Virus record (IMG/VR): IMGVR_UViG_3300042541_002435
Span: 1 to 41,114 of that record
Reading direction: 5' to 3' (one strand)
Length of the DNA: 41,114 nucleotides
Source: a virus
The translations under genes were made by a program, and so were the position numbers. Positions 11,728 to 40,107 of this stretch are shown here, in pieces. Below the pieces are notes generated by a model. The model worked only from the letters and a program-made list of their open reading frames with translations. It was not told the DNA's origin and did no database searches. The stretch's first letter is position 1. Each line of letters starts with the position of its first letter.

Positions 11728-11753
11728 AAAAACCACAAAAGATTGTGGTTTTT
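11728..11753 (-). terminator. intrinsic terminator after the 278-residue gene
   Basis: On the minus strand a perfect stem AAAACCACAA / TTGTGGTTTT (11752-11743 with 11738-11729, loop TCTT) is followed by a T-rich tract including seven T in a row. It lies just past the stop of the gene at 11759. Related imperfect copies of the same stem occur at 14084-14107 and 38027-38051. Confidence 0.75.
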
Positions 11754-14077: not shown

Positions 14078-14108
14078 TTGCATAAAACCACAAAGTTTTG
14101 TAGTTTTG
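14078..14108 (+). promoter_or_regulatory. promoter of the tRNA/structured RNA unit
   Basis: -33 TTG (14078-14080), 20 bp spacer and -7 TAGTTTTG (14101-14108) fit the Bacteroidota consensus exactly. An AAAACCACAA / TTGTAGTTTT inverted repeat spans spacer and -7 box, so the promoter can form a hairpin or bind a dimer. It faces right, back to back with the late arm. Confidence 0.75.
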
Positions 14109-14136
14109 TAGTGTCTTAAAGAGTTGAACGATAAAA

Positions 14137-14193
14137 AAGGGTTGGGGTCGCCAAATATTGACTTATAATGTGCGTAGAATAAACTCAACCCTT
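14137..14193 (+). promoter_or_regulatory. leader hairpin before the small HTH-like gene
   Basis: AAGGGTTG (14137-14144) pairs perfectly with CAACCCTT (14186-14193) in the leader, extendable by a G-U and a G-C pair. The hairpin ends 8 bp before the ATG at 14202 and has no T-run, so it may act on translation or RNA stability rather than termination. Confidence 0.5.
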
Positions 14194-14201
14194 AATGCAA
14201 A

Positions 14202-15147: not shown

Positions 15148-15178
15148 TTGTTTATTAAATAATATTTTCGTAACTTTG
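15148..15178 (+). promoter_or_regulatory. promoter of the wHTH gene leader
   Basis: -33 TTG (15148-15150), 20 bp, -7 TAACTTTG (15171-15178). The start should be near 15185, at or just inside segment X of the structured leader. The last part of the spacer and the -7 box (ATTTTCGTAACTTTG) resemble the promoters at 18395 and 21827. Confidence 0.75.
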
Positions 15179-15181
15179 GTA

Positions 15182-15287
15182 TGCGAAAATAATTGGTACG
15201 CCAACACAAAAAATACAGCAATACTCCTTAGCCAATTATTTTCGCAGATTTTTTGGTTATTTCTAAGGGTTTTGCTGTATTTTTTTT
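15182..15287 (+). promoter_or_regulatory. interlocked terminator leader, copy 1
   Basis: Segment X (15182-15196) pairs perfectly, 15 bp, with X' (15232-15246). Segment P (AATACAGCAA 15212-15221 plus CCTTAG 15226-15231) pairs with P' (CTAAGG 15263-15268 plus TTGCTGTATT 15272-15281), followed by a T-run. X' therefore lies in the loop of the P/P' terminator hairpin. X:X' pairing encloses the 5' arm of P and could compete with the terminator or make a pseudoknot. The T-run ends directly at the ATG of the 15288 gene. Copies 2 and 3 precede 38245 and 39037. Confidence 0.7.
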
Positions 15288-16025
15288 ATGCTTAATACAA
15301 GGATATATGTGGAAATGACAAAAAACGCTCTAAAGAGTCAGTTTTCGCCATACCTATTATCTTACTTTAAATTAAGGATATACACTGCTGAAAACAAGTC
15401 TTACGGACAAGTTAAGTTAAGTCAAATTCCAAACATATTAGGCTTATCTGAATCTACCTGTCACAGACATATTAAGGTACTTATTGAAAATGGATATGTT
15501 CTTGAAAAAGGATTATCTATTGAAGTAAAAGCACCAAAGAACCTCTCAAACAAAAAATCACTAAAGTATATAGCTATCGACAGTGAAATCATCAAGGGTT
15601 TCTCTTGGAAGAATATTGCTGAATTTAGAGCTTTACTCGCTGAAATTGTAAAAGAACAATATGAAGCGACAAAGAACTCTATCATCAAAGGATTTAAAGT
15701 TAGAGACAAACAAGGATATAAAGTTAGAGTACAAGACTTAAAACTATTAGAATTTAAAGGGCTTGCGGCACTATCTTTATCAGCCAAACTTTCAAACATC
15801 TCAATTAGAACAGAACAACGTTATCGCTCATTGCAAAAAGTATCCTCTTATACGTCTGAAAAGATATTTATAAACTCAAACGGTGGCGATGGCAGAAAGA
15901 TGGATTTTATAAAATACCTTTCAGACAAAAAGAAGGGTAAATTCATTGAACATAACGATAAGTTATTCTTTTCTTGTGTGTCTGAGAGAGTTTCAGATTT
16001 AAAAATTAACACTTTTAGGCGTTAA
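15288..16025 (+). CDS. winged-helix DNA-binding protein
   Basis: A 245-residue protein. Residues about 35-65 (VKLSQIPNILGLSESTCHRHIKVLIENGYV) form a typical helix-turn-helix plus wing as in replication initiators and MarR/GntR-type regulators. The rest is basic and helical. It is the first sizeable gene of the early arm and is controlled by a structured terminator leader, so a regulatory or replication role is likely. ATG 15288 directly abuts the T-run; an in-frame ATG at 15315 is an alternative start. Confidence 0.7.
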   Translation: MLNTRIYVEMTKNALKSQFSPYLLSYFKLRIYTAENKSYGQVKLSQIPNILGLSESTCHRHIKVLIENGYVLEKGLSIEVKAPKNLSNKKSLKYIAIDSEIIKGFSWKNIAEFRALLAEIVKEQYEATKNSIIKGFKVRDKQGYKVRVQDLKLLEFKGLAALSLSAKLSNISIRTEQRYRSLQKVSSYTSEKIFINSNGGDGRKMDFIKYLSDKKKGKFIEHNDKLFFSCVSERVSDLKINTFRR

Positions 16026-34612: not shown

Positions 34613-34837
34613 ATGAGAGAATATTTAAAATTAGCGGCAATGCTTGCCATAGCTTCATCTTTTGAGCAAGCGTCTCATAGAATAGAAAAGCCAACACTGT
34701 TTGAGCCAAGTATAAAACCAAAAGAACCAATAAGACCAAAGAATCATAAACCGTTTATTATTAAAGGTGTTGAGGTTTGGGCTTTAAGCGAAAAACATGC
34801 AAGAGATAAGTTCAATAAAATAAAACTTTCTCTTTGA
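34613..34837 (+). CDS. hypothetical 74-residue protein
   Basis: Contains a Pro/Lys-rich middle (KPTLFEPSIKPKEPIRPKNH) between two short structured ends. The N-terminal residues (LKLAAMLAIASSF) are weakly hydrophobic. It overlaps the next promoter by 4 bp. No family recognised. Confidence 0.55.
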   Translation: MREYLKLAAMLAIASSFEQASHRIEKPTLFEPSIKPKEPIRPKNHKPFIIKGVEVWALSEKHARDKFNKIKLSL

Positions 34838-34863
34838 CTTATCGCCACAAATGTTTATATTTG
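34834..34863 (+). promoter_or_regulatory. promoter of the NinG-like gene
   Basis: -33 TTG (34834-34836), 19 bp, -7 TATATTTG (34856-34863). It starts a new unit of recombination/replication genes. Confidence 0.75.
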
Positions 34864-34901
34864 CTTGATAATCAGCCAATTTGGCATTAAATTTATTAAG
34901 T

Positions 34902-35537
34902 ATGAAGAAATGTAAGGTTTGTGGCGTGGAATTTTCTCCGAGTAACTCTATTCAAAAAGTTTGTTCTGTTAATTGTGCTATCTCGTTTGCTAAAAACAAA
35001 AGTGATAAAGAAGAGTTAGTAGTTCAAAAGAAAGAAAAGAAAGCATGGGTTGAAAGGAAGAAAGATATAAAAGAAAAGATTAAAACTCTTTCAGATTATC
35101 AAAATGAACTTCAAAAGGAAATTAACAAAATTGTTCGCTTGCTTGATAGGGGTCATTCATGTATATCTTCGGGCAGAAACTTGGGAAGTAAATTCGATGC
35201 AGGGCATTGTTTCTCTCGTGGTGCATTTCCTGCAATTCGTTTTAACTTACATAATATTTGGTCGCAAAGTGTTCACGATAATCAGTATTTATCGGGCAAT
35301 TTTAACGGATTCAGAACTCGATTGATTGAAAAGTTTGGGGTTGCGTATTTTGAATATATCGAAGGTCTTAAATTAGAATATCTTTCACTTAAACTAAGCA
35401 AAGAAGAATTAGTTGAAGCTAAAAATATTTGTAAGGATATTATTAGGCAATTACAAGAGGAGGGTTATCTTACTGACCAAGAAAGATTAGAATACAGATA
35501 CAAACTAAATAAACGAATTGGAATTTATGACAAATAG
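34902..35537 (+). CDS. ninG: NinG/Rap-like recombination protein
   Basis: Relative of lambda NinG (Rap), a Holliday junction/branched DNA endonuclease. A 211-residue protein from ATG 34902; 34881 would include promoter-proximal sequence. Residues 1-25 form a zinc finger (CKVCGVEFSP ... CSVNC), a lysine-rich coiled helix follows, then the family core RGHSCISSGRNLGSKFDAGHCFSRGAFPAIRFNLHN split over residues about 88-125 (CxSS, DAGHC, N-x-H-N). A role in recombination-dependent replication or resolution of concatemers before packaging is likely. Confidence 0.85.
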   Translation: MKKCKVCGVEFSPSNSIQKVCSVNCAISFAKNKSDKEELVVQKKEKKAWVERKKDIKEKIKTLSDYQNELQKEINKIVRLLDRGHSCISSGRNLGSKFDAGHCFSRGAFPAIRFNLHNIWSQSVHDNQYLSGNFNGFRTRLIEKFGVAYFEYIEGLKLEYLSLKLSKEELVEAKNICKDIIRQLQEEGYLTDQERLEYRYKLNKRIGIYDK

Positions 35538-37899: not shown

Positions 37900-38028
37900 A
37901 TGAAAGTATTTCAAGGAATTAAATTTGATTATGATTCTTCCGATGGTTGTATAGAATATGACTATCTTCCCTCAGACGAAGAGGAAGACGCACTTCAAAG
38001 ACAGGAAGACGAAGCGATGGAGGATTAA
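37900..38028 (+). CDS. acidic 42-residue protein
   Basis: ATG 37900 opens MKVFQGIKFDYDSSDGCIEY followed by an Asp/Glu-rich tail (SDEEEDALQRQEDEAMED). It is followed at once by a hairpin/terminator. Function unknown. Confidence 0.6.
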   Translation: MKVFQGIKFDYDSSDGCIEYDYLPSDEEEDALQRQEDEAMED

Positions 38029-38052
38029 AACCACAAAACATTGTAGTTTTTA
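38027..38052 (+). terminator. weak terminator-like repeat
   Basis: AAAAC-C-ACAA / TTGT-A-GTTTT (38027-38036/38041-38050, one C-A mismatch) followed by few T. Same repeat family as the stem at 14084 and the perfect terminator at 11728. Confidence 0.5.
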
Positions 38053-38115: not shown

Positions 38116-38146
38116 TTGCTTTGGTAGAGCTTAGTCAGTAAATTTG
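38116..38146 (+). promoter_or_regulatory. promoter overlapping leader copy 2
   Basis: TTG (38116-38118), 20 bp, -7 TAAATTTG (38139-38146), a perfect match. Segment X (38124-38132) lies between the two boxes. Confidence 0.75.
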
Positions 38147-38232
38147 TAACAGAAAATATTATACGAGGAACACCTCAAATTGATAGCAAGCTCTACACCC
38201 TTCGGGGGCTATCTTTTTGAGGTGTTTTTTTT
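38124..38232 (+). promoter_or_regulatory. interlocked terminator leader, copy 2
   Basis: X (GTAGAGCTT, 38124-38132) is the exact complement of X' (AAGCTCTAC, 38188-38196). P/P' is AACACCTCAAA/TTTGAGGTGTT (38169-38179/38216-38226) plus GATAGC/GCTATC (38182-38187/38208-38213), followed by eight T. Inside the loop is a small CCC-TTCG-GGG hairpin after X'. A competing GAGG-AACA-CCTC hairpin (38165-38176) can mask the 5' arm of P. Located 12 bp before the methyltransferase ATG. Confidence 0.7.
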
Positions 38233-38244
38233 GTATCAAATATT

Positions 38245-38808
38245 ATGAAATTAGACTTAATAACCAATAAAGCAGAGAGAATTGGCTCTTTAAATCCCAA
38301 TGATGAGTTTTATACTCCAAGATATGCAATAACCCCTCTACTCAAATACTTAGAGCCACAAAGCTGTATATTGTGTCCCTTCGATTCAAAGGAAAGTAAT
38401 TACGTGAAAGTTTTATCAGAAAATGGTCATCATGTTTACAAGTCTCACATACACAATGGGTTAGACTTCTTTGCCATAGAAAAAGACGTTCACTGTCTTG
38501 GGATTAAATATATAATTTCCAATCCTCCTTATTCCTTAAAGGCAGAGGTGTTTAAAAAACTTTTTGAGCTTGATATTCCTTTTGCAATGCTTGTAGGAGT
38601 TGTAGGTTTATTTGAGTCAAAAACAAGATTTGAAATGTTTCGTAATAATGATTTTGAGATAATGTACTTTGACAAGAGGGTATCTTATTTTAAAGACTAC
38701 AACGACCAAACACCGAGTTTAAATCCTCCATTTTCAAGCGTTTACATAACAAAAGGCATACTGCCGAAGCAAATAGTTTTTGAGAGTATTAATAAGAAAG
38801 AATTATAA
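38245..38808 (+). CDS. phage adenine DNA methyltransferase-like protein
   Basis: A 187-residue protein with SNPPYS (motif IV, NPPY, about residues 91-96) and the N-terminal NPNDEFYTPRYAITPLLKYL, which corresponds to the substrate/SAM pocket start of phage Dam-like N6-adenine methyltransferases. It is shorter than full-length enzymes and no FxGxG is clear, so activity is uncertain. Such genes are common in Bacteroidota phages next to replication proteins. Controlled by a structured terminator leader. Confidence 0.8.
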   Translation: MKLDLITNKAERIGSLNPNDEFYTPRYAITPLLKYLEPQSCILCPFDSKESNYVKVLSENGHHVYKSHIHNGLDFFAIEKDVHCLGIKYIISNPPYSLKAEVFKKLFELDIPFAMLVGVVGLFESKTRFEMFRNNDFEIMYFDKRVSYFKDYNDQTPSLNPPFSSVYITKGILPKQIVFESINKKEL

Positions 38809-38891: not shown

Positions 38892-38922
38892 TTGCATAGG
38901 TAAGAGTCTGTGAGTAAATTTG
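38892..38922 (+). promoter_or_regulatory. promoter overlapping leader copy 3
   Basis: TTG (38892-38894), 20 bp, -7 TAAATTTG (38915-38922), with segment X (38899-38909) between the boxes, the same layout as at 38116. Confidence 0.75.
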
Positions 38923-39012
38923 CAATAGAAAATATTAATACGAGGAACACCTCAAACAGATAGACTCTTACCACGCCATGCGTGCCTATCTTGTTTGGGG
39001 TGTTCTTTTTTT
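38899..39012 (+). promoter_or_regulatory. interlocked terminator leader, copy 3
   Basis: X (GGTAAGAGTCT, 38899-38909) pairs exactly with X' (AGACTCTTACC, 38962-38972). P/P' is GAACACCTCAAAC/GTTTGGGGTGTTC (38945-38957/38993-39005, one G-U) plus GATAG/CTATC (38959-38963/38986-38990), then seven T. Loop hairpin CACGC-CAT-GCGTG follows X'. The outer P stem is conserved with copy 2 while X/X' differ but remain complementary. It ends 24 bp before the replication initiator ATG. Confidence 0.7.
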
Positions 39013-39036: not shown

Positions 39037-40107
39037 ATGGTATCTGAAAAACACTGGTTTGACACCGAAAATGCAAAACAATACGGAATAGTAGAGGCTA
39101 TATTAATTGAAAACCTATCTTTTTGGATTGGCAAGAATATGGCTAACAAAACACACATACATAAAGTGGTGGAAGGGGAATTGGCAGGGCAAGAGCGTTG
39201 CTGGAGTTATAATTCAGTGGTTGCATTTACTAAGATATTCGACTATATATCTCCGAAGAAAATACGAACATCATTAGATGGTTTAGTAGAGAAGAAAGTT
39301 TTATTAAAAGGTAATTTTAGTAAAGACAAAACAGACAGAAGTAATTGGTATGCTTTTTATTGTGAAGAGGATTTTATTAGCGGAAAGTATATAAGCATAA
39401 AAGAGTCCCATTTGCCCCACAGGGCGAATGCACTTGCCCCACAGGGCGAATGTATATATACAGATAAAAAACAAACAGATAAAAAACATATTCCTGCGGA
39501 AGAAAATAAAGATAATATTTCTTTACTTACATCTAATACTACTATGTATGAAAGTAAGAAAACCAATATAGAATTGAATTGCACTTTACCAATAAATGAT
39601 GTAATTATTCCAATAGTAGAGAAAAAGCCAAAGAAGGAAGTAAAAGACCCTGCTATTATGAGTGAAAATAGAAGGTTCTCAAAAGACTTTACAGAGGCTT
39701 GGAGTAAAGCAGGAAAAGAAAAACTTACACAAATTGGCTATGTAGCTATTAATAAATTATTTACCAAGCATGGTTACGAAAAAGGAATGTTTTTCTGCGA
39801 CTACTTGTGTCAAATGTATGGCTCAAACGAGAAGTCAATTGCTAAGATAGAAAATCAAGACAAGGCACTATTGTTCTATCAAGACCCACAAGAAGAGCAA
39901 CCTAAATACTTAGGAATTACAAAATGGGATTCTTACAAAAGATTTAAGAATGAGCAGGAAGAACCAAGTATGGGTTCGTTTTTTAATGAGGATTCATTTT
40001 ATGCGGCATTGGAGTATTTTTATTCAAATCAATTCGGTGGTACTGAACTCGTGAAGAAAGTTCGTGAAAGAGTAAAAGAAATTAATTGTAAATATAATAA
40101 ATACTAA
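39037..40107 (+). CDS. replication initiator / replisome organiser protein
   Basis: 356 residues from ATG 39037 (an in-frame ATG at 38995 is in the leader). The N-terminal about 110 residues are a winged-helix domain of the type found in phage replication proteins of Bacteroidota and Firmicutes: HWFDTENAKQYGIVEAILIENLSFW, CWSYNSVVAFTKIFDYISPKKIRTSLDGL, then NWYAF. A variable polar linker (about 140-225) leads to a helical C-terminal domain similar to DnaD-type helicase loaders. It probably binds the origin and recruits the host helicase. Confidence 0.8.
   Translation: MVSEKHWFDTENAKQYGIVEAILIENLSFWIGKNMANKTHIHKVVEGELAGQERCWSYNSVVAFTKIFDYISPKKIRTSLDGLVEKKVLLKGNFSKDKTDRSNWYAFYCEEDFISGKYISIKESHLPHRANALAPQGECIYTDKKQTDKKHIPAEENKDNISLLTSNTTMYESKKTNIELNCTLPINDVIIPIVEKKPKKEVKDPAIMSENRRFSKDFTEAWSKAGKEKLTQIGYVAINKLFTKHGYEKGMFFCDYLCQMYGSNEKSIAKIENQDKALLFYQDPQEEQPKYLGITKWDSYKRFKNEQEEPSMGSFFNEDSFYAALEYFYSNQFGGTELVKKVRERVKEINCKYNKY

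Follow-up and report, generated by a model that had tools for sequence, protein, structure and literature searches.

Promoter-proximal terminators with covarying loop complementarity suggest an undescribed RNA switch in uncultured viruses with Bacteroidota-type promoters

Organization of the leader elements

The 41,114-nt virus DNA analysed in this work (IMG/VR record IMGVR_UViG_3300042541_002435, positions 1 to 41,114; hereafter the window) contains three plus-strand elements in which a promoter is followed by a terminator-like hairpin. The loop of each hairpin carries a segment, X', complementary to an upstream segment, X; the 5' and 3' arms of the hairpin are designated P and P'. The element at 15148-15287, downstream of tRNA genes and upstream of an early regulator gene, is referred to as type 1, those at 38116-38232 (W1) and 38892-39012 (W2) as type 2. 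Their features and the genes that follow them are:

15148-15178, plus strand: type-1 promoter; TTG at 15148-15150, 20-nt spacer, -7 box TAACTTTG at 15171-15178, predicted start 15183
15182-15196, plus strand: type-1 X, about the first 14 nt of the predicted RNA; homologues in L267 and L123
15209-15231, plus strand: type-1 P, the terminator 5' arm, AAAAATACAGCAATACTCCTTAG
15232-15246, plus strand: type-1 X', in the terminator loop
15263-15287, plus strand: type-1 P' and a run of eight T, followed at 15288 by the start codon of the regulator
15288-16025, plus strand: winged-helix regulator (Pfam HTH_24), first gene past the type-1 element; the L123 homologue is 76% identical
38116-38146, plus strand: W1 promoter; TTG, 20-nt spacer, TAAATTTG, predicted start 38151
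38124-38132, plus strand: W1 X, predicted -27 to -19, within the promoter spacer
38165-38179, plus strand: W1 P, GAGGAACACCTCAAA; a local GAGG/CCTC hairpin is also possible
38182-38186, plus strand: 5' arm of W1 P2, GATAG, with the 3' arm CTATC at 38209-38213; kept in all six type-2 elements
38188-38196, plus strand: W1 X', an unpaired internal loop of the hairpin
38216-38232, plus strand: W1 P' and T run, from folding
38245-38808, plus strand: DNA methyltransferase gene 3' of W1 (PHROG 799, E 2.7e-25)
38892-38922, plus strand: W2 promoter; TTG, 20-nt spacer, TAAATTTG, predicted start 38927
38899-38909, plus strand: W2 X, predicted -28 to -18
38942-38958, plus strand: W2 P, from folding
38962-38972, plus strand: W2 X', exact complement of W2 X
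38992-39012, plus strand: W2 P' and T run, from folding
39040-40107, plus strand: replication initiator gene 3' of W2 (PHROG 11233, E 4.1e-22)

The initial annotation had named control and replication genes downstream of the hairpins, and the HTH_24, PHROG 799 and PHROG 11233 assignments agree with this. When the plus strand of the window was searched for TTG-Nn-TAnnTTTG, eight sites had a spacing of 20 nt and five a spacing of 19 nt, with none or one at other spacings. This peak indicates that the window uses the Bacteroidota sigma-A promoter and, judged from promoter type alone, the host would be of Bacteroidota type. In Flavobacterium the TAnnTTTG-type box sits at -12 to -5 (PMC9723704), which places the predicted starts at 15183, 38151 and 38927. 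In all nine elements, those of the window and the relatives described below, the terminator is located between promoter and start codon, thus expression from that promoter requires read-through.

The two types differ in the position of X. The terminated type-1 RNA includes its own X. In type 2 the offset of X from the promoter is constant within 1 nt in all six elements, and the predicted local RNA, about 80-90 nt long to the terminator, contains P, X' and P' and lacks X. The interlocked X-P-X'-P' leader of the initial annotation therefore describes 15182, where X is part of the local transcript, but not 38124 and 38899, where X precedes the predicted start and an interlocked pseudoknot could form only on RNA entering from upstream. 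Upstream sources of X-containing type-2 RNA can be predicted: W1, L122 and L120 are preceded by a predicted TTG-N20-TAACTTTA/G promoter, and L126, L281 and W2 by an adjacent gene. The census, which covered this one promoter type, contained no minus-strand TTG-N19/20-TAnnTTTG promoter near 38-39 kb.

All three type-1 promoters (window 15165-15189, L267 and L123) have an inverted repeat, TTTTCG-N13-CGAAA, across the -7 box. It is probably an operator, perhaps one bound by the downstream winged-helix protein. Two further hairpins were seen in the window. One of them, AAAACCACAA/TTGTGGTTTT, recurs near three gene starts (38027-38051, 11729-11753 and 14084-14108) and overlaps the promoter at 14078; the other, AAGGGTTG...CAACCCTTTTTT at 14130-14195, is a minus-strand terminator upstream of a leftward operon and has a weak 8-bp X-like match, CAAATATT.

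Relatives and covariation

Relatives were collected by pattern and protein scans of IMG/VR, followed by scans of the fetched contigs. The type-2 set comprises six elements with five distinct X alleles (W1, W2, L122/L028, L120/L125, L126 and L281), and type 1 is known from three phage contigs (window, L267 and L123). Type 1 is accompanied by at least one type-2 element in three contigs: the window, 3300020045_007949 and 3300011115_000838. The elements at 38124 and 38899 are homologous to each other, whereas 15182 stands apart and has no evident sequence similarity to them, so that the single family originally proposed has to be divided. A covariance model of type 2 recovered the six known elements and no convincing new ones, the other matches being far weaker (several fell on the complementary strand of known elements, and the remainder scored near chance). 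No element was present among 93 pattern matches in GTDB contigs, in 395 Bacteroidota genomes or in Bacteroides phages with related initiators (the whole of B124-14 and the initiator regions of BF698P1, C3_41T2LP and BF3-TP1). Comparison with Rfam yielded sub-threshold noise and no family match, and the open-access literature on phage and plasmid RNA control contained no description of such an element, in line with the earlier view that it is undescribed.

The replication initiator gene follows type 2 in five of the six cases. W1 is the exception: in the window a copy of the leader and, behind it, the methyltransferase gene are located immediately ahead of W2 and the initiator. The methyltransferase was ruled out as the partner of type 2, as 18 relatives (L139-L156) are without the leader. 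Long imperfect inverted repeats resembling attC or cassette ends (start TAACG, end GTTAT...) precede the methyltransferase genes in L139, L144-L147 and L156. The L028 contig (G001) carries a TnpB-like (PF07282) gene at 65215-65418, the only one in the five contigs.

Two additional candidates were not accepted as elements. At L125 12739-12860 a promoter is followed by a strong terminator hairpin with a match between 5' end and loop, GTTTGACA/TGTCAAAC, of 8 bp (p 0.08-0.14); it is possibly a third type but by itself not significant. At window 34834-34960, the spacer of the promoter in front of NinG contains CGCCACAAA, and TTTGTGGCG falls barely within the coding region; this 9-bp match, whose downstream partner is thus within coding sequence, is probably due to chance.

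The X:X' pairs reported earlier, 15182-15196/15232-15246 (15 bp), 38124-38132/38188-38196 (9 bp) and 38899-38909/38962-38972 (11 bp), are exact, and in a search of the whole window each X was found exactly only at its own X and X'. Shuffled upstream sequences reached the observed match length in 0 of 500 trials for 15182, 2 of 500 for 38124 and 0 of 300 for 38899, the last test being run on the L277 copy, which has the same X and X' as the element at 38899. The compensatory change noted within the window became far stronger when the relatives were included; a lack of covariation in related phages, which by the initial annotation would have refuted it, was not observed. In type 2, 44 of 45 cells are paired over the five alleles, and seven of the nine pairs have changed on both sides, while no pair has changed on a single side; this covariation was matched by 0 of 500 shuffles, slid control structures were 20-50% paired, and column-wise shuffles failed to reach the observed pairing in any of 20,000 trials. 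Every type-2 X has its own X' as its best complement. The type-1 alignment consists of three sequences only, in which 40 of 42 cells are paired and four of 14 pairs show two-sided change (1 of 500 shuffles). The shuffles and the covariation together reject a chance origin, and we consider it established from these comparisons that X:X' pairing, or at least an enforced complementarity, is real.

Near-perfect inverted repeats about 50-65 nt apart and free of G-U pairs could also be kept identical by mutation (template switching at quasi-palindromes) or as the repeats of an invertible promoter, with no selection for pairing. The boundaries and position of the repeats are, however, nearly constant over diverged alleles, X' is always the loop, X differs from one element to another, and neither serine nor tyrosine recombinases (PF00239, PF00589) were detected in the five contigs, which may be fragments. 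We judge this explanation very improbable.

Comparison of L126, L281 and W2 delimits what is exchanged between phages. L126 and L281 are nearly identical in DNA up to the TTG box and have different elements from there on, and L126 shares its X/X' allele with W2 while the upstream DNA of these two differs; the exchanged module thus extends from the -33 box through the terminator and includes X. Moreover, W2 and L126 combine the same X with different initiator N-termini, and the initiators of L120 and W2 are related (52% identity) and their X differ. X therefore does not track initiator type, which speaks against an initiator binding site. The same observation weighs against the broader idea that a DNA-binding protein recognises X and X' as inverted half-sites, forming an operator or replication iterons, as do the two different X pairs in one genome and the absence of a counterpart for the covarying part of type-1 X from the left half-site. 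Even with the TTTTCG-N13-CGAAA repeat conserved over the type-1 -7 box and a replication initiator downstream of type 2, there is in our view little chance that this idea is correct.

None of the 84 paired cells of the two types is a G-U pair, which is unusual for a purely RNA helix and leaves room for a constraint at the DNA level. In the terminator stem a compensated change was seen (ACACC/GGTGT versus ACGCC/GGCGT), and the P helix does contain G-U pairs. Strict Watson-Crick pairing would be in keeping with recognition of X as promoter DNA by the terminated RNA, in an RNA-guided or R-loop self-repression whose logic resembles that of a self-targeting guide RNA. Such recognition would also fit the constant offset (within 1 nt) of X in type-2 promoters and the overlap of type-1 X with the start region. 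On the other hand, a segment of 9-11 nt is short to pair with duplex DNA without assistance, and no shared candidate effector was found, the TnpB-like gene occurring in one contig of five, and we regard this explanation as improbable. The X' loop of the terminated leader might be a short guide that, with some partner protein, directs the RNA to promoter DNA X, located in the -33/-7 spacer for type 2 and in the start region for type 1; this we likewise consider improbable. If it were true, each phage promoter would possess its own matched, co-evolving RNA address.

Folding and proposed mode of action

The P:P' hairpins fold with -27.6, -30.8 and -33.5 kcal/mol at 15182, 38124 and 38899, respectively (z -4.0 to -6.0), and in all three P' is followed by a run of 7-8 T. 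This combination of a G+C-containing stem and an immediate U run is that of an intrinsic terminator and, with X' in the loop, it agrees with the original description of the hairpins. In folding, the local type-2 RNA forms one long hairpin in which the X' loop is flanked by P2 (GATAG/CTATC) on one side and by P3, a small hairpin that varies, on the other. X' spans an unpaired internal loop of 8-11 nt in all type-2 hairpins, and X:X' complementarity ends at the edge of the P2 stem or at most 2 nt from it. As X complements the loop and not the stem of the terminator, the arrangement does not support classical mutually exclusive stems.

In pseudoknot-free folding of the X-containing RNAs, X:X' was the optimal structure up to a point about 8-15 nt short of the T-run end, and P:P' was optimal thereafter. 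For type 1, X:X' has -19.2 kcal/mol in the prefix, and in the full RNA P:P' has -27.6 versus -21.3 for X:X'. In the X:X' state of the X-containing type-2 RNA the terminator 5' arm is held in a local hairpin, mostly GAGG/CCTC. The predicted change of fold resembles a kinetic antiterminator. The X:X' duplexes of the elements themselves have -13.9 to -18.6 kcal/mol, and the W1-W2 cross duplexes -6.9 and -8.6; pairing within W1 or within W2 is favoured over pairing between them by 5-12 kcal/mol, which suggests that W1 and W2 are insulated from one another.

From the arrangement and the folding we infer the transcripts, the termination, the direction of the switch and an action in trans, as follows. 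The elements would be promoter-proximal conditional terminators (attenuators) in which X and X' form a specificity pair and the terminated leader acts in trans. RNA bearing X (every transcript in type 1, transcripts from upstream in type 2) would form X:X' immediately once X' has been transcribed; this pairing would enclose P and delay P:P' until the polymerase has passed, so that the gene is expressed. The terminated RNA would be a small RNA displaying X' in its loop, and in type 2 it would contain no X. On accumulating, it would pair in trans with the X of new transcripts and free P for P', by which termination is restored. The outcome would be that early and replication genes are shut off in a copy-sensing manner, and owing to the divergence of X/X' each element would respond only to its own RNA. 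We give this reading as a whole an even chance. The type-2 design appears tailored to it, because the local promoter yields RNA with X' only and RNA from upstream carries X.

Part of the evidence could also be accommodated in cis, X:X' and P:P' constituting a single interlocked pseudoknot or bistable leader that is read by a protein, the ribosome or polymerase pausing, with no RNA acting in trans. In type 1, X and X' are indeed within one RNA and X:X' forms first, at the -19.2 kcal/mol of the prefix, and the linkers measure 12-17 nt. In type 2, however, transcripts initiated at the conserved local promoter do not contain X, and pairing in cis would require upstream transcription; the constant placement of X within the spacer would also be left unexplained. 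Action in cis only seems unlikely to us.

At about 36 nt, the type-2 linker between X and P leaves enough room for a pseudoknot, and together with the pairing of X to the loop this means that X:X' need not block termination; X:X' may instead favour it. No phage-encoded NusG-like factor, as would be sought for an antitermination leader of the UpxY/NusG type, was found in the five contigs; a host factor might serve instead. These contigs, which may be fragments, also contained no integrase or resolvase. Since no integrase was found, the elements more likely serve to regulate copy number or timing, or to exclude related phages, than to confer lysogenic immunity.

If the interpretation as an RNA switch is correct, the elements represent an undescribed family of regulatory RNAs, carried by phages that use Bacteroidota-type promoters. 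The covariation of the RNA loop with part of its promoter or 5' end is unusually clear. Should they act in trans, X/X' would be a simple, swappable code of phage identity for copy control or related-phage exclusion, and could possibly provide orthogonal RNA switches for Bacteroidota.

Comparison with known RNA-controlled systems

The closest parallels to the proposed mechanism are found among phage and plasmid RNAs. The immunity RNA of phage P4, CI RNA, with its segments seqA, seqB and seqC (PMC4825925), is likewise a phage leader RNA that derives from the transcript it controls and has a segment complementary to an upstream segment; the upstream segment of type 2 is predicted to be transcribed only from further upstream. 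In both systems premature termination precedes replication genes, here as a prediction. CI RNA is excised from a longer transcript, whereas the ends of the RNA proposed here would be defined by a local promoter and an intrinsic terminator. A whole-window search for exact copies of each X detected no downstream copy comparable to seqC, no sequence similarity between CI RNA and the window elements is known, and an integrase was not found here.

The C4 RNA of P1 and P7 contacts its target through loops a' and b', of which a' confers specificity (PMC5320573). It too is a small RNA of phage origin that shares a transcript with its target, but it has three stem-loops, is processed by RNase P and occludes ribosome-binding sites; the elements studied here had no Rfam match, including to the C4 antisense RNA covariance model. 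In plasmid pIP501, RNAIII controls premature termination in the leader of the replication initiator mRNA (PMC4981023), the step at which control is predicted here. RNAIII is, however, an antisense RNA from a convergent promoter, while X' and the proposed small RNA are on the mRNA strand. IsrK of Gifsy-1 consists of a short terminated RNA and a read-through mRNA from one promoter, the short form acting in trans on the long one (PMC4825925); it activates translation of the read-through RNA, whereas an effect on termination is proposed here. By analogy with these systems, the elements would belong with the known phage and plasmid RNAs that control termination in their own leader.
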